Assembly (NCBI GenBank): GCA_030651135.1
Contig: JAUSCS010000006.1
Coordinates: 132,851-196,850, forward strand
Reading direction: 5' to 3'
Length of the DNA stretch: 64,000 nucleotides
From: Candidatus Woesearchaeota archaeon
GTDB taxonomy: Archaea > Nanobdellota > Nanobdellia > Woesearchaeales > JACPBO01
A program made the position numbers and the translations under genes. Of this stretch, positions 25,623 to 50,247 are shown in pieces. The notes under the pieces were generated by a model, which saw only the letters and a program-made list of their open reading frames with translations, searched no databases and was not told the origin of the DNA. Numbering within the stretch: the first letter of the stretch is position 1; every line of letters starts with the position of its first letter.

Positions 25623-27634
25623 AACTATTCAGCATAATAAAAAAGAACTTTAAGCTTTTGCTTAGGTCAAGGACTTCTGCTTTGATAGTTATACTTGGGC
25701 CTTTGTTAATAATCCTTCTTGCAGGAATAGCATTCAACACATCAAAATCATACAGCCTCAATATTGGAACTTATTCTCCGAGCTATAATGCGCTGATCAA
25801 TTCTTTCATAGAACGATTGACTGACAAGCAGTTCGCAGTAAGGCAATTTGAAACAGAAAATTCATGCATAGATGCCATTAAAAAAGGCACAATACATACA
25901 TGCATTGTTTTCCCGAAAGATCTTGACTTTGAAAACCCCTCTATTGAGAATGAAATAACATTTCATGTTGATTACTCCAAGATTAATTTAGTCTGGATAA
26001 TCCTTGATATTGTCTCTTCAAAAATATCTTCAAGGTCAAGGGAGCTGAGCATTAATCTTACAACTGTTATTTTAGATAAGCTGGACAGGACAAAGCAGGA
26101 ATTGCAGAATGACCTGATTGTTATTGATGCTCTTGTATCTGAAAACAAGGATGTGAATGACAAAGTTTCAGAGGTTAAAGCTTCTTTAAGCTCAATGCAG
26201 CTTTCTTTCAATAAAAATGATCTAAAGGCAGATGAGATTGCAGCTAAAACAGCAGAGGTGAACAGCAAAGTAACCTTGCTGCTAGGTTACAGTTCTGCAT
26301 CAATTGCCACAACACAGCAATTGATTGATAATGTAAATAACGCAGCAGGGATGATGTCTGCAAATGCAAGCGGCAAAGGCATACTGGTAAGTTCTGCCAA
26401 CGATGCGCAAACACAGGTTACAGATCTGTCTTCAAGCATAAGCAACATCAGCAGCCTTATCTCTTCATACAATTCAGACATTGCTTCTTTGCTGTCTGTT
26501 ATGCAGGCAAGCTCAGATGATTTGCAGGCAAGGCTTGACAAAGCAGCTTCGCTTAAAAGCTCAGCTTCGTCAAAGCTTGATGTTATAAAATCAACATTGG
26601 ACAAAGCAGCTTCAGAGCTTAGCGCAGTCAAGAATTCTGTCCGCAATATAATTGCAAATATCGAAAGCACTAAAGTCAAGGATGCCCAAAGCATTGTAAG
26701 CCCTGTCAAGACAAAAATATCACCTGTAACGCCTGAAACAAGCAACCTCAATTATGTATTCCCGAGCCTGATAGTTCTTGTCATAATGTTCATAAGCATA
26801 TTGCTTTCGTCGACATTGGTTATGATGGAAAAGATGTCAAGAGCTTATTTCAGAAACTTTGTAACTCCGACAAGAGATGCAACATTCATATTTTCAGCTT
26901 ATCTTACCAATATGCTGATCCTTGTATTGCAGCTAATAATCATCCTTGCAATCTCAACAATATTCTTAAGGGAGATTGTGCTGCTGGGCCTGTTAAAATC
27001 CCTTCCTTTACTGCTGCTGATAACAACAATATTCACATTCATCGGAATCTGCATAGGCTATTTGTTCAATTCAGAGGAAACATCAACAATGGCTTCAATA
27101 TCTGTTGGCGCGATAATGATCTTCCTGTCCAACCTCATACTGCCGCTGGAAAGCATGCCGGATTATGTCAGGCAGATAGCTGCTTATAACCCATTTGTAA
27201 TAAGTGAAGTAGTGCTTCGAAAATTAATGGTGTTCAATTCACCTTTTATTGTTATTAAAAATGAGATCGGGATGCTTATAGCTTTTGTTGTGCTTTTCAT
27301 TGGTTTAACGCTTGGAGCTCAGCAATTGATGAAGCACCGCTTTTTGGCAGAGGGAATAAGCATTTTCAGGAAGAAAAAGAAAGAAGAGCCTAAAGAAAGT
27401 GAAGAGCAGAAAGAGACAAAGCTGAGTTTCAAATCAATAGGAGAGCTTGTCGGGAATATCTTTTCCATGCCGGATCATGACTTTGAAGAAGCGATCAAAG
27501 AGAAAAACATCTATGCAGAATGGGTATTGGAAAGTTACAAGGATGAAGCACTGTACAGCAAGTTAAAGGATATAAGGAAGAGAACGCAGTTCTTAAGCAT
27601 TATAAAGAAGCATTTGGAAGAGAAAACAAAGTAG
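25619..27634 (+). CDS. ABC-2 type permease with large extracytoplasmic coiled-coil domain
   Basis: A 671-residue membrane subunit. One transmembrane helix (about 20-38) is followed by ~340 residues outside the membrane, rich in Ser/Ala/Leu heptads and predicted coiled coil (residues ~165-350), then about five to six transmembrane helices (380-580). A charged cytoplasmic tail (KKKKEEPKESEEQKETK onward, ~90 residues) resembles a helical hairpin. This plan resembles the YhgE/Pip and ABC2_membrane_3 groups, which export substrates or act as phage receptors in bacteria. The substrate is unknown. Confidence 0.8.
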   Translation: MKLFSIIKKNFKLLLRSRTSALIVILGPLLIILLAGIAFNTSKSYSLNIGTYSPSYNALINSFIERLTDKQFAVRQFETENSCIDAIKKGTIHTCIVFPKDLDFENPSIENEITFHVDYSKINLVWIILDIVSSKISSRSRELSINLTTVILDKLDRTKQELQNDLIVIDALVSENKDVNDKVSEVKASLSSMQLSFNKNDLKADEIAAKTAEVNSKVTLLLGYSSASIATTQQLIDNVNNAAGMMSANASGKGILVSSANDAQTQVTDLSSSISNISSLISSYNSDIASLLSVMQASSDDLQARLDKAASLKSSASSKLDVIKSTLDKAASELSAVKNSVRNIIANIESTKVKDAQSIVSPVKTKISPVTPETSNLNYVFPSLIVLVIMFISILLSSTLVMMEKMSRAYFRNFVTPTRDATFIFSAYLTNMLILVLQLIIILAISTIFLREIVLLGLLKSLPLLLLITTIFTFIGICIGYLFNSEETSTMASISVGAIMIFLSNLILPLESMPDYVRQIAAYNPFVISEVVLRKLMVFNSPFIVIKNEIGMLIAFVVLFIGLTLGAQQLMKHRFLAEGISIFRKKKKEEPKESEEQKETKLSFKSIGELVGNIFSMPDHDFEEAIKEKNIYAEWVLESYKDEALYSKLKDIRKRTQFLSIIKKHLEEKTK

Positions 27635-37029: not shown

Positions 37030-37055
37030 ACCATGATATAAAGTTATAGTATGGT
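37030..37055 (+). promoter_or_regulatory. Palindromic operator over the start of TA module 1
   Basis: ACCATGATATA-AAGT-TATAGTATGGT: 11-bp arms with 9 matching positions. It overlaps the predicted transcription start (TATA-like TTTAAAT at 37009-37015) and the first possible ATG (37051), the place where TA antitoxins commonly repress their own promoter. Confidence 0.5.
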
Positions 37056-37329
37056 AATCAAGATGCAGCAAATATTGCATTATCCTAGATTGGATACAAT
37101 TTTGAAAATTGAAAGAGTGCTTAAATTTGCAAAAGAACCCCTTTCAAAGAATGAAATAGATAGAAGGCTAGAGGCGCAGATCATGAGGCCTACGTTAAAC
37201 CTTATCTTGGAGTATTTGGAACAGAGTGGAAAAATAGCAATACTTGAAAAAGGGGTTATTTGGATTTATTCTCAGGATGCTAGCAAAAAGCTAAAAGCCA
37301 AACTTCAGAAAGCCGTAACTGTGATGTAA
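37051..37329 (+). CDS. Winged-helix antitoxin-like protein, TA module 1
   Basis: A 92-residue protein with a compact winged-helix: YPRLDTILKIERVLKFAKEP, LSKNEIDRRLEAQIMRPTLN, LILEYLEQSGKIAILEKG, and a terminal VIWIYSQ. It aligns along its length with the protein at 47715-48020 (ILxYPxLxTxLxxE, TLxLILEYLxxSGKI, GVxWIYS). Its stop is followed immediately by the ATG of a RelE-like gene. It is presumably the DNA-binding, toxin-neutralising partner. ATG 37063 (MQQILHYP) is an alternative start, as the first ATG lies inside the operator. Confidence 0.65.
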   Translation: MVIKMQQILHYPRLDTILKIERVLKFAKEPLSKNEIDRRLEAQIMRPTLNLILEYLEQSGKIAILEKGVIWIYSQDASKKLKAKLQKAVTVM

Positions 37330-37698
37330 ATGAACAAAGAAACAGTTGTTCAATTTGATGCAGATGCGTATAAGGAGTATACTGAACTGCAGGAAGCTGT
37401 AGCTCAAGGCAAACATTCTTGTTCAAATCCAACTTATGAGCAGCTATTATCTTCTATAAATAATGCAATCAAAAATATCAAAGCAAATTCATTCTGCGGG
37501 GATTTGATACCTAGAAAATACATCAGTAAAGGTACTGTCAATAGATATGGCACTGATAAAATATTCAGAATCGAACTCGTAGGATATTGGAGATTGCTAT
37601 ATACCGTCATAGGTGATGAAACCAAGATCATCGCATTCATTTTGGAATATATGAACCATGAGAGATATAATAAAATATTTGGATATAAAAAAATATAA
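37330..37698 (+). CDS. RelE/ParE-fold toxin-like protein, TA module 1
   Basis: A 122-residue protein whose C-terminal half has the RelE-type core: GTDKIFRIELVGYWRLLYTVIGDE, then IIAFILEYMNHERYNKIFGYK. The same core, FRxEL-YWRxLYT and H-x-x-YNKxFGYK, recurs in the gene at 47366-47713. RelE-fold toxins cut mRNA at the ribosome; ParE-fold relatives poison gyrase. Arg/Tyr/His residues in the C-terminal stretch could be catalytic. It starts directly at the antitoxin stop (TAA ATG). Confidence 0.7.
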   Translation: MNKETVVQFDADAYKEYTELQEAVAQGKHSCSNPTYEQLLSSINNAIKNIKANSFCGDLIPRKYISKGTVNRYGTDKIFRIELVGYWRLLYTVIGDETKIIAFILEYMNHERYNKIFGYKKI

Positions 37699-46267: not shown

Positions 46268-46316
46268 ACCATTACAAATCACTCAAAAAGCAAAAATTTA
46301 AATAGTTTGTAATGGT
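46268..46316 (+). promoter_or_regulatory. Perfect inverted-repeat operator spanning the fic promoter
   Basis: ACCATTACAAA (46268-46278) and TTTGTAATGGT (46306-46316) are perfect 11-bp complements flanking a TATA box (TTTAAATA, 46297-46304). A dimeric repressor bound here would occlude TBP. The right arm contains the first ATG of the frame (46312). Confidence 0.6.
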
Positions 46317-46326
46317 AATGATCCGT

Positions 46327-47187
46327 ATGAGAGTGTTAAAACGGAGAGCTGGCAAAAAAGAATACTATTATCTGCAGCATTCCTTCAGGATAAAAGGCAG
46401 GGTGGTGACAAAAGAAAAATATCTCGGCAAGGGCATACCTGAAAACATAGAAGAGCTAAAGAGGGTTTTTCTTGAGGAGTGCTATGAGAGCGGCCTGTTC
46501 GGGCTTTTTGAAAAAATAAAAAAGGGGTTTCAGAAAGAATGGCGAAGATACCCTGAGTCGATAAAAGAGAAAGTAGAGGAGCAGATTGCGATAGCTTTCA
46601 CATACAACACAAATGCCATTGAAGGCTCAACAATAACGCTTGAGGAAACAAGCGAATTGGTAGAGCATAAGATAGCCCCGAATAAGCCGATGAGGGAGGT
46701 AAAAGAAACTGAATCGCATGTAAAGCTTTTTTTGGGCATACTTAAAAAAAGAGAAAATTTTTCCATTCGGCTTATTTTGAAATGGCACAAAGAGCTATTT
46801 CAAGGCACAAAACAGGACATCGCCGGAAGATTTCGCGATTATCTTGTCAGGGTGGCTGCCTACCTTGCTCCAGACTGGCAGGATGTAAGGCATTTAATGG
46901 GGGATTTTGTTAAATTCTATAATAGAAACGAAGGAATGAATGCAGTTGAGCTGGCAGCAAGAATGCACTATAAGTTTGAGAAAATACACCCATTCGGAGA
47001 TGGGAACGGAAGGATTGGCAGGCTTATAATGAACTATATTTTATGGCATAACGGCTGCCCTATGCTCATAATTGAGTATAAAAAGAGAAGATCTTACTAT
47101 AAGGCATTGCAAAAAGGCGAAGATGGCTTTTTCAATTATTTTGCAAGGAGATATTTGAAAGTGCACAGCAAATACTTGAAAGAATAA
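46327..47187 (+). CDS. fic: Fic-domain protein (AMPylase-type) with inhibitory motif
   Basis: About 286 residues. The catalytic Fic motif HPFGDGNGRIGR (about 221-232) is complete, and an N-terminal inhibitory-helix motif TNAIEG (about 95-100, consensus S/TxxxE G/N) marks a class II, self-inhibited Fic. The fold start NFSIRLILKWHKELF and RFRDYLVRV match. Fic proteins transfer AMP or other nucleotides to target protein hydroxyls. Frames open at 46312 and 46318, but the TATA spacing (~26 nt) and operator position favour ATG 46327. The N-terminal ~45 residues (KRRAGKKEYYYLQHSFRIKG) form a small basic beta region found in archaeal/bacterial Fic proteins. It ends 8 nt from the convergent 5S gene. 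Confidence 0.85.
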   Translation: MRVLKRRAGKKEYYYLQHSFRIKGRVVTKEKYLGKGIPENIEELKRVFLEECYESGLFGLFEKIKKGFQKEWRRYPESIKEKVEEQIAIAFTYNTNAIEGSTITLEETSELVEHKIAPNKPMREVKETESHVKLFLGILKKRENFSIRLILKWHKELFQGTKQDIAGRFRDYLVRVAAYLAPDWQDVRHLMGDFVKFYNRNEGMNAVELAARMHYKFEKIHPFGDGNGRIGRLIMNYILWHNGCPMLIIEYKKRRSYYKALQKGEDGFFNYFARRYLKVHSKYLKE

Positions 47188-47365: not shown

Positions 47366-47713
47366 CTAACGATCCTTATACCCAAACAGCTTATTGTACT
47401 GCTTATGATCAACTATATTTAAAACAAAAAGAAAGATCTCGACAGTGTTCCCTTCGATAGTATACAGCATTCTCCAATAATTTGACAGCTCAACCCGGTA
47501 CAAGTTCTGGATTCCCATTCTTTTAAGCTCTTCAGGTATTAATTCTTTGTTTATGGGATCGCCATATTGCGGATTGTCTTTAAGAATATTCTTGACCCTT
47601 TCAAAAGAATTCAAAATAGACAGCGCTTCTTTATCAGTTCTTTTCTTTAATGCAAGATAGGCTTCTTTTCCCTGCCATTTCAATAATATCCTGACCTCTT
47701 TTCCTGCAAACAA
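47366..47713 (-). CDS. RelE/ParE-fold toxin-like protein, TA module 2
   Basis: A 115-residue homologue of the toxin at 37330-37698: LERVKNILKDNPQYGDPINK, IPEELKRMGIQNLYRVELSN, YWRMLYTIEGN and IVDHKQYNKLFGYK. The core is the RelE/ParE fold. The start is TTG 47713, supported by GAGGT (47720-47724) at good spacing and by lying 1 nt past the antitoxin stop. The N-terminal half is a helical pair rich in Lys/Glu. It converges with nothing; the 5S promoter lies just beyond its stop. Confidence 0.7.
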   Translation of the reverse strand: MFAGKEVRILLKWQGKEAYLALKKRTDKEALSILNSFERVKNILKDNPQYGDPINKELIPEELKRMGIQNLYRVELSNYWRMLYTIEGNTVEIFLFVLNIVDHKQYNKLFGYKDR

Positions 47714-47714
47714 T

Positions 47715-48020
47715 TTATACCTCTAATGATCCTTCCATCATGCTTCTCAGATGCTCTGGCTTAGAATAAATCCACTGAACTCCTCTGGGCCCATAAATTA
47801 TTTTTCCGCTTCTCCAAAGGTATTCGAGTATCAACTTCAAAGTTTGATGCATAACCTGCCTGGGAAGCATCTTTCGCAGTTCAGAAATCTGCAAAGGCGC
47901 ATCTCTGTGTTTTTCAAGAAAATCTTCTACCATCAACACAGTATTCAAATTAGGATATCTTAATATTTTGCTGTCTTTCTTTTCGATTAGCTCATCTTTA
48001 GTAAGTTTTAATGTTTGCAT
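47715..48020 (-). CDS. Winged-helix antitoxin-like protein, TA module 2
   Basis: A 101-residue homologue of the protein at 37051-37329, sharing ILRYPNLNTVLMVEDFLEKH, QTLKLILEYLWRSGKII and GVQWIYS. The N-terminal ~15 residues (MQTLKLTKDELIEKKDS) are extra relative to module 1 and look like a short binding tail. Its gene is preceded by a multi-copy TTGATAT operator and followed 1 nt later by the toxin start. A winged-helix antitoxin would be unlike the common RHH, AbrB or Xre types. Confidence 0.65.
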   Translation of the reverse strand: MQTLKLTKDELIEKKDSKILRYPNLNTVLMVEDFLEKHRDAPLQISELRKMLPRQVMHQTLKLILEYLWRSGKIIYGPRGVQWIYSKPEHLRSMMEGSLEV

Positions 48021-48089: not shown

Positions 48090-48890
48090 TTACGATTTTA
48101 AAAAGCCAATAATATCCTTTTTCGTGTGTATGTGCGTTTCTTTCTGGCTGCTTAAATGGCCCTGCAGCAGCCCTTTCAAAGCCAAGACAGGGAAAACATC
48201 CTTTTCAAGGCTTGCTCCGCCATATTCCATGATCTCCGGCTCTGCGGCAAATATTGAGCTAAATCCGATATAAATGTCGCTCTGCCTCGGCTTCTGGACA
48301 AATTCAAGGATTTTATCGCCTTCCATCCTCACAACCCCTTTCTTTGAAGGCATTGGCGAGCTTGTCAGCATCAGCGTTGCTATGCTTCTGTGCCTTAAAT
48401 GGTCATTCCACAATTCCTCAATGTTGATTTTGTCAAATATTATGTCAGAGTAAACAACAAGGAAATTATTCTTTATTTTGCCCTTCAGCAGCCTTAAGGA
48501 ATCTGCAGTTCCGTTTGATTCTTTTTCCTCAACATAGCTTATTTTCATGCCGTATAAGCTTCCGTCTCCTATAAGGTCAAAAACCCTGCTCATCACATTG
48601 TGCCTTGCAATAAAAAATATTGTTTTAAAGCCATTCTCCTTTAATTTTTTAATCGCCATTTCAATAACAGCGCTGCTATTGATCTTTGCAGTCATCCTGT
48701 ATTCCTTGCCGATCTTCAGATCTTCTTCGCTGCCTCCGGCAAGTATGACCGCTACTTTATTCTCCCCGAGAGAGCTGTTCACAAGAAACTCCATTGCCTG
48801 GCTCCTGTTCCTTATGTATATGTTGTCAATTATGGAATCTATCTCTCTCAATGTTTTTTCGTTTATTGTAATGCTTATTTTCTTTTTCAC
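48090..48890 (-). CDS. Ribbon-helix-helix domain fused to a sugar-nucleotidyltransferase-like domain
   Basis: A 266-residue fusion. Residues 1 to ~45 (KISITINEKTLREIDSIIDN, YIRNRSQAMEFLVNSSL) are a ribbon-helix-helix DNA-binding unit. Residues ~46-266 are a Rossmann-like nucleotidyltransferase domain: VAVILAGGSEEDLKIGKEYRM, VEEKESNGTADSLRLL, FLVVYSDIIFDKINI, VRMEGDKILEFVQKP, YIGFSSIFA. The usual GxGTRxxPLT loop is degenerate, so catalysis may be lost and the domain may sense a nucleotide sugar. The start is GTG 48890, just behind a TATA-like element (48913-48925). It is divergent from the sugar-nucleotide dehydrogenase and a candidate regulator of this locus. Confidence 0.8.
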   Translation of the reverse strand: MKKKISITINEKTLREIDSIIDNIYIRNRSQAMEFLVNSSLGENKVAVILAGGSEEDLKIGKEYRMTAKINSSAVIEMAIKKLKENGFKTIFFIARHNVMSRVFDLIGDGSLYGMKISYVEEKESNGTADSLRLLKGKIKNNFLVVYSDIIFDKINIEELWNDHLRHRSIATLMLTSSPMPSKKGVVRMEGDKILEFVQKPRQSDIYIGFSSIFAAEPEIMEYGGASLEKDVFPVLALKGLLQGHLSSQKETHIHTKKDIIGFLKS

Positions 48891-48981
48891 AAATTAAAGA
48901 AAACACACCTAATATTTAAATTTATCGCATAAAGTAGGATAATGGTAAGATATTTAAAGAAGCTCTGTTTTCAAAGCAAGC

Positions 48982-50247
48982 ATGGACATTTCAATCATTG
49001 GAGCAGGCTATGTTGGGTTAATACAGGGAGCAGGGCTGGCTAAACTAGGCAGCAAAGTAATCCTTGTAGATGTGGATCAAAACAAAGTGGATAAAATAAA
49101 CAGGAAAGATCCTCCCATATACGAAAAAGGGCTGAAAGAATTGTTGAGAGAAGTTGTCCCAAAAAGTCTGACAGCATCAACAGACCTGAAAAAAGCAATT
49201 AATAATACAAAAATAACATTCATCTGCGTCGGAACGCCTTCAAAAAAAGAAGGCAGCATTATTCTAAACCAATTAGAAACTGTTTCAATGGAAATTGGAA
49301 AAATCCTGAAAAACAAGAAAGACAAGCATCTTATTGTCATAAAAAGCACAGTTGTTCCGGAAACATGCGAAAAAACAGTCATCCCGCTTTTAGAAAAATA
49401 TTCTGGAAAGAAATTCGGAAAGGATTTTGGCGTTGCAATGAACCCTGAGTTTTTGAAAGAAGGCTCTGCATTGGATGATTTCTTTGCTCCAGACAGAATT
49501 GTAATAGGCAGCGCAGACAAAAAGTCAATTAAAACATTAAAGCAGCTTTACAGGAATTTCAAATGCCCAATATTAGAAACATCATTCAGAGAAGCTGAAA
49601 TGATAAAATACGCAAGCAATGCTTTTTTGGCAACAAAAATTTCCTTCATAAACGAGATAGGCAATGTCTGCAAAAAAATAGGCATAGACACGAATATTGT
49701 TGCAAAAGGGATTGGCTTTGATAAAAGAATCAATCCGTATTTCTTAAGATCGGGAATTGGGTTTGGAGGATCATGTTTTCCGAAAGATGTTGTTGCTTTG
49801 ATTTACAAGGCAACAGAGCACGGCTATCATCCAAGGTTATTAAGTGCAGTATTAGACGTCAATAAAGAGCAGCCATTGAAGTTATTGGAGATAATTGAAA
49901 AGCACAATGTAAAAAACAAGAAAATCGCAATTTTAGGATTAACATTTAAAGCTGGAACTGATGACATAAGGGAAAGCCCCGCAATAAGCATAATAAAAGA
50001 GCTTTTGATTGAAGAGCCAAAGCTTTATCTTTACGATCCCATGGCCATGGAAAATGTAAGAAGAATTTTCCCGCATCTGAATTACACAAAGACAGCGCAG
50101 GAAGCGGTTGATGAAGCAGATATTGTGCTTATTTTGACAGAATGGCCTGAATTCAAAGATCTCAGCTATGGTAACAAGCCCGTGATAGACGGCAAGAATG
50201 TTTTTGATGGAAAAAAGCCAAAGAATTACGAAGGAATATGCTGGTAA
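48982..50247 (+). CDS. ugd: UDP-glucose/GDP-mannose dehydrogenase family enzyme
   Basis: A 421-residue NAD-dependent enzyme that oxidises a UDP-sugar C6 hydroxyl to a carboxylate in two steps. The NAD-binding GAGYVG is at 7-12, VVPETCEKTVIPLLEK, PEFLKEGSALDDF, and the catalytic Cys265 in GIGFGGSCFPKDV; the C-terminal domain has LGLTFKAGTDDIRESPA. UDP-glucose is the most likely substrate, UDP-ManNAc or GDP-mannose are alternatives. A TATA element (about 48950-48961) precedes a leaderless start. Confidence 0.88.
   Translation: MDISIIGAGYVGLIQGAGLAKLGSKVILVDVDQNKVDKINRKDPPIYEKGLKELLREVVPKSLTASTDLKKAINNTKITFICVGTPSKKEGSIILNQLETVSMEIGKILKNKKDKHLIVIKSTVVPETCEKTVIPLLEKYSGKKFGKDFGVAMNPEFLKEGSALDDFFAPDRIVIGSADKKSIKTLKQLYRNFKCPILETSFREAEMIKYASNAFLATKISFINEIGNVCKKIGIDTNIVAKGIGFDKRINPYFLRSGIGFGGSCFPKDVVALIYKATEHGYHPRLLSAVLDVNKEQPLKLLEIIEKHNVKNKKIAILGLTFKAGTDDIRESPAISIIKELLIEEPKLYLYDPMAMENVRRIFPHLNYTKTAQEAVDEADIVLILTEWPEFKDLSYGNKPVIDGKNVFDGKKPKNYEGICW

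Follow-up and report, generated by a model that had tools for sequence, protein, structure and literature searches.

PutA has an RHH (ribbon-helix-helix) N-terminal domain fused to proline-catabolic enzymes and represses the divergent put genes; NadR has a kinase domain and, fused to a helix-turn-helix (HTH) domain, a domain of the NMN adenylyltransferase fold; among archaea, the one-component regulators RbkR and GfcR pair an HTH with a domain that derives from an enzyme, riboflavin kinase and a PRTase-like domain, respectively. The orthologous group of RHH–nucleotidyltransferase (NTase) proteins analysed here, designated group B, shared with PutA an N-terminal RHH on a metabolic-enzyme fold, an operator in a divergent spacer, and predicted autoregulation, but PutA is catalytically active and of another fold, while group B had no catalytic loop. 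Group B resembled NadR in coupling a DNA-binding domain to an NTase-fold domain as putative metabolite sensor, while NadR has an HTH instead of an RHH, belongs to an unrelated adenylyltransferase superfamily, serves NAD metabolism, and is bacterial. NikR, also a one-component regulator, contained the solved RHH closest to that of group B, but it has an unrelated ACT-like metal-binding sensor domain, a palindromic operator with long spacing, and nickel as its ligand; RbkR and GfcR differed in both DNA-binding and enzyme folds and in pathway. The PF00483 sugar nucleotidyltransferases (RmlA, GMPP, AglF, and archaeal GlmU-like enzymes) resembled the group-B C-terminal domain in fold and overall sequence, but group B lacked GxGTR, the PK lysine, and the second metal Asp and had the additional RHH domain. 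By analogy, group B would belong among the enzyme-derived one-component regulators, with PutA and NadR as the closest kinds. No description of an RHH–sugar nucleotidyltransferase regulator was found in the literature searched (mostly outside subscription papers), nor in PMC6393860 and PMC8204110 on DPANN/archaeal dark matter.

The window (the whole stretch of 64,000 nucleotides analysed) contained a group-B gene separated by a 91-bp spacer from a divergent UDP-sugar dehydrogenase (UGD) gene at 48982 (Table 1). The C-terminal domain of the window protein matched NTP_transferase PF00483 at residues 47 to 232 (E 1.4e-17; 64.5 bits versus the curated cut-off of 21.2), and the Foldseek structure search returned sugar nucleotidyltransferases including RmlA/GMPP (TM ~0.7), placing this domain within the PF00483 fold. 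For the N-terminal domain, Pfam RHH_1 gave no match in the window protein and remained below threshold even in the best family members (E 0.002 to 0.04), and NCBIfam NikR matched residues 4 to 45 below its cut-off (E 0.04). A profile of 18 family N-termini matched RHH domains of known structure, with E values of 2.9e-6 for E. coli NikR, 1.6e-5 for a mycobacterial antitoxin, and 1.5e-4 for another NikR. The AlphaFold model (mean pLDDT 92; 63-row alignment) displayed the extended segment-helix-helix order expected of an RHH across residues 1 to 42. This ~45-residue strand-helix-helix unit, together with its similarity to known members, assigned the domain to the RHH (MetJ/Arc) superfamily, and its residues T8, D18, N28-R29-S30, A32, and E34 were invariant in the 80 to 81 orthologues covering them. 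An earlier note on this DNA had proposed both an RHH unit in the first ~45 residues and the divergent arrangement with UGD, and both were borne out. Since the RHH lay below the Pfam and NCBIfam cut-offs, automatic annotation would probably label such regulators as sugar nucleotidyltransferases.

Table 1. Coordinates of the group-B gene, its domains, and the divergent UGD region in the window
Feature	Position	Strand	Basis or remark
RHH-nucleotidyltransferase pseudoenzyme (group B)	48090..48890	minus	266 aa, GTG start; ORF, Pfam, alignment, and model
RHH domain, predicted DNA-binding	48756..48890	minus	residues 1-45; profile search and model
NTase-fold domain, degenerate loop	48093..48755	minus	PF00483 match, alignment, and fold search
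Predicted RHH-NTase TATA box TTTAAATA	48913..48920	minus	22 bp before GTG; conserved across sites
Predicted operator TATCGCATAAAGTAGGATAATGGTAAGATA	48923..48952	plus	three tandem repeats, 10-11 bp period
Predicted UGD TATA box TATTTAAA	48951..48958	plus	overlaps repeat-3 end; 23 bp before UGD ATG; conserved across sites
UDP-sugar dehydrogenase (UGD), predicted target	48982..50247	plus	PF03721/PF00984/PF03720

The domain pair singled out by the earlier note recurred in a scan of named genomes at 80 further group-B loci (81 proteins with that of the window), nearly all labelled Candidatus Woesearchaeota or Nanoarchaeota, and UGD was immediately divergent from the group-B gene at 57 of these 80 loci; a match (E up to 1e-5) was present in 41 of 60 relative genomes. 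The architecture and the degenerate loop both recurred in many lineages of the order at family level, so neither was due to chance. The RHH-bearing proteins were divided by alignment into three groups plus a few others: (i) group A with an intact loop, (ii) group B, and (iii) group C without the loop. The NTase-domain tree, in which the bootstrap was not fully settled and the support values were rough, recovered group B as one clade (97/94), 11 of 12 group-C rows as another clade (98/98), and a split of all degenerate rows together from group A and the stand-alone NTases (92/93). Group B is an old, conserved orthologous group with a degenerate loop.

The comparison also covered the paralogous groups A and C. 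A group-A paralogue with the same architecture and 35% identity was found in the window's genome (G000:C13:32352-33110; L055:5275-6111, minus strand); it had a complete catalytic set (AGGKGTRLRPLT, NGDEL, and GQWFDTG), its gene overlapped a phosphohexomutase gene, and it was a candidate self-regulating enzyme. Group-A genes were followed by a phosphohexomutase gene in most loci and were sometimes divergent from FBPase and aldolase genes. A predicted group-A operator, GTATGATAAAGTATGATA, was related to that of group B: ATCATACnnnATCATAC occurred upstream of group-A genes, 19 of 26 scoring above at least 95% of shuffles, and its reverse complement GTATGATnnnGTATGAT had the GTAnGAT core in common with the group-B operator; in a genome-wide search, most matches with 0 to 2 mismatches lay just upstream of group-A genes. 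A palindrome, GTATGAAnnnTTCATAC, preceded six of eight group-C genes as their predicted operator, likewise related to that of group B, and several of these loop-less genes (L079, L085, and L087) were divergent from SIS, PfkB, and HAD domain genes, read as a heptose operon.

The group-B operator was first recognized by side-by-side reading of the spacers, and its logo was built from 64 non-redundant sites. It consisted of three tandem repeats of 10 to 11 bp with the consensus TATCgGATAAA (also written TATCgcATAAA), GTAGGATAAnG, and GTAAGATATTTA(A/T)A; its core in the window (48929-48952) had 0 mismatches to this consensus. A scan of the 350 bp ahead of the group-B gene for the 24-bp core (at most 3 mismatches) found it at 67 of 80 loci, 55 of them with at most 1 mismatch, while the reversed pattern used as control gave 0 of 80. 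In the commonest layout, exactly 38 bp separated it from the regulator's start codon and 28 to 29 bp from the UGD ATG. The operator sat between two divergent TATA boxes: repeat 3 ran into that of UGD, and that on the other strand commonly lay 9 to 16 bp before the operator core. Both predicted TATA boxes were ~22 to 29 bp from their start codons, a distance that would be expected for leaderless archaeal transcripts. These conserved tandem repeats would be suitably placed for RHH proteins, which bind tandem or inverted repeats as cooperating dimers.

The ligand step aside, group B is highly likely to be a DNA-binding pseudoenzyme regulator, and a dedicated role in gene regulation is very probable for the protein. 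According to the proposed mechanism, RHH dimers would sit on the three GTAGGATA-like tandem repeats that separate the divergent core promoters and would obstruct both of them, the third repeat overlapping the UGD TFB/TBP site and the first lying a few bp from the regulator's own TATA box, with UGD repression and autorepression as the outcome. The NTase-fold domain, no longer catalytic, would be kept as a ligand pocket; its ligand would most likely be a pathway UDP-sugar, either the substrate that UGD normally uses (UDP-glucose) or the UGD product (UDP-glucuronate), and ligand binding would alter DNA binding. Physical binding of the predicted operator by the group-B protein is, in our judgement, very highly probable. 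Repression rather than activation is likely from the overlap of repeat 3 with the TFB/TBP site, and the genes repressed would most likely be UGD and that of the regulator itself. It is fairly probable that the ligand is a nucleotide sugar, and the fold, the partner genes, and the retention of K200 and G127 point to a UDP-sugar as the best guess.

It is unlikely that group B works as a ligand-free repressor whose NTase fold serves solely as a scaffold for oligomerisation, spacing the RHH dimers on the repeats: three regularly spaced repeats would suit a multimer, and sugar nucleotidyltransferases are commonly oligomeric, but the pocket-side and group-B-specific residues Q199, K200, F210, S211, E251, H253, and H255 were invariant or nearly so, which exceeds the needs of a scaffold, and the three RHH-NTase branches adjoined different sugar-nucleotide pathways.

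The catalytic set was compared across the 81 group-B proteins. None of them contained the GxGTR loop: the window protein had GG-SEED at residues 52 to 57 where GGxGTR was expected, and the acidic E55, located at the expected triphosphate-binding loop, was present in 67 of 81. The second catalytic/metal Asp (W-x-D-x-G motif) corresponded to H253 in the window protein (His in 73 and Lys in 6 of 79), the PK-motif lysine corresponded to R65, and the first metal Asp, D149, was kept in 71 of 81 and was His in the other 10. With the loop absent and the two Asp not both kept, group B lacked the features of an active sugar-1-phosphate nucleotidyltransferase, and this uniform loop loss across the orthologous group supported the reading of its NTase-fold domain as a retired enzyme; the degenerate nucleotide-binding loop and the retired enzyme that the earlier note had described from a single sequence were thereby extended to the whole group. 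The domain was strongly conserved at G53, E121, G127, K200 (80 of 81), F210, and the E251-x-H253-x-H255 strand, and some residual chemistry may persist through D149, K200, and R65 as a possible stand-in for the catalytic Lys. Retention of D149, K200, G127, and E121/E122, as well as the intact-loop paralogues of the same architecture that look like working enzymes, would favour the view that group B retains sugar-1-phosphate nucleotidyltransferase activity despite its unusual loop, the RHH making it bifunctional and self-regulating in the manner of PutA and proline; this is nevertheless decidedly improbable in view of the loop lost from every member, the acidic E55 placed where triphosphate would bind, and the changes at both metal Asp positions. 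Fusion homologues with the full loop and pyrophosphorylase activity but no DNA binding had been named in advance by the earlier note as evidence against a regulator; half of this case was found, in that homologues with the full loop did exist, one of them in the same genome, but many carried their own operator and look like self-regulating enzymes, so they were not taken as a refutation. Having lost catalytic residues, group B did not fit the PutA type of bifunctional protein; group A kept the catalytic residues and had an operator; intact group A would be the closer PutA analogue.

Another reading, in which the pocket has been remodelled into a metal site (D149 plus E251/H253/H255) and group B senses a metal as NikR does, is very improbable: the near-invariant E251, H253, and H255 did alternate on one strand at the former catalytic metal Asp, and NikR was the closest solved RHH, but the partner genes concerned nucleotide sugars and not metal transport, H253 was replaced by Lys in some orthologues, and the likeness to NikR was confined to the RHH.

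A survey of 371 genomes from the phylum addressed the co-occurrence of the group-B protein and its operator. The operator occurred in 41 genomes, all of the same order and with one site per genome, and the protein in 49: 39 genomes had both, 2 the operator only, 10 the protein only, and 320 neither, the protein thus being present in 39 of 41 operator genomes versus 10 of 330 others (Fisher 6e-41, a value that ignores shared ancestry and is inflated by relatedness). One operator-only genome (G056) contained a group-B fragment truncated at a contig end. At the threshold used, no operator accompanied six group-B-like proteins that belonged to other orders within the class, or four from the same order. 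Among the UGD-bearing genomes of a 60-genome sample, the operator stood at UGD in 13 of 15 with the protein (one gene standing ahead of UGD in G007) versus 1 of 30 without it (Fisher 2e-8, likewise ignoring shared ancestry), and in that lone genome the contig ended ~120 bp past the operator. Three genomes (G019, G055, and G211) had UGD apart from the regulator gene and the operator directly before the remote UGD, which implied regulation in trans; these cases are a stronger argument than the Fisher values. At 14 of 80 loci there was no divergent UGD, yet the operator preceded the regulator gene; at L253 it lay between a GalU-like gene upstream and the start of the regulator gene, and at some loci a GalU-like enzyme or GHMP kinase gene adjoined UGD or the regulator. 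Together, the co-occurrence and trans pattern is the trace that would be expected of a trans-acting, self-regulating repressor. That the spacer element is instead a general UGD promoter element or the site of an unrelated factor, with the RHH-NTase a mere neighbour, is scarcely credible despite the overlap of the last repeat with the promoter BRE/TATA region, since all but 1 of the 30 UGD genomes without the protein lacked the element (on which ground a general promoter element was rejected), the element stayed with UGD when the genes were apart and with the regulator when UGD was absent, and the paralogues had related half-sites.

The earlier note had suggested a regulator controlling the polysaccharide locus. 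The DNA-binding half of this proposal was strongly supported by the conserved operator in the very spacer it had named, by the co-occurrence, and by the trans cases; its regulator reading is very probably right, and its nucleotide-sugar sensing step would fit the retained fold, some kept pocket residues, and the partner genes. However, the predicted target narrowed to UGD and the regulator itself, with one strong site per genome, and did not extend to the whole locus. A large regulon was rejected, as the 24-bp pattern (at most 3 mismatches) matched only once in the window's genome, and the search of the phylum likewise gave one site per genome. A second match in the window at 26900 had 3 mismatches to a shorter pattern and was within chance, and the operator matches away from UGD in G032 and G058 were probably due to chance as well. 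In G110, the genome's only operator match preceded a 43-aa zinc-ribbon-like ORF (L262:1499-1677) and not UGD.

Little is known about specific regulators in DPANN archaea, and group B with its operator offers a testable cis-trans pair (a 30-bp operator and a 266-aa protein) for DPANN transcription control. The chances appear evenly balanced that the RHH-NTases constitute a lineage-specific set of sugar-nucleotide switches in Woesearchaeota-like DPANN, comprising a branch of working, self-regulating enzymes that accompanies phosphohexomutase and enzyme-dead branches that evolved into dedicated sensors, one of UDP-glucose/UDP-glucuronate (at UGD) and one of heptose nucleotides, with a separate operator version for each branch. 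The family would offer a compact series leading from a working enzyme to a regulator that is enzymatically dead, and its DNA-binding domain, operators, and targets can all be read from sequence.

Several neighbouring elements and genes were recorded. A 111-nt multi-hairpin element lay between the operator and the regulator gene in the sister genome (G001:C6:4117-4227; L034:4117-4227); it had a fold z-score of -8.6 and no Rfam match, and its matches (4 in the window's genome and 11 in G001) identified it as a dispersed structured repeat. A ~302-aa protein without a Pfam match was encoded between the group-B gene and UGD at L035:8754-9662 and likewise at L151, L156, L157, L160, L206, and L207. 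The window contained two gene pairs (47366-48020 and 37051-37698) with a similar first member (winged-helix-like, ~92 to 101 aa), and a weak ParE-like match of 47366-47713 made a toxin-antitoxin family possible. In both the window and G001, this ParE-like gene and its partner (47715-48020) lay downstream of the group-B gene and shared its strand; the pair was not beside the orthologues examined outside the genus, and group B as the RHH antitoxin of a type II toxin-antitoxin system was rejected. A Fic/DOC family protein (PF02661, E 3e-23) was encoded near the locus at 46312-47187.
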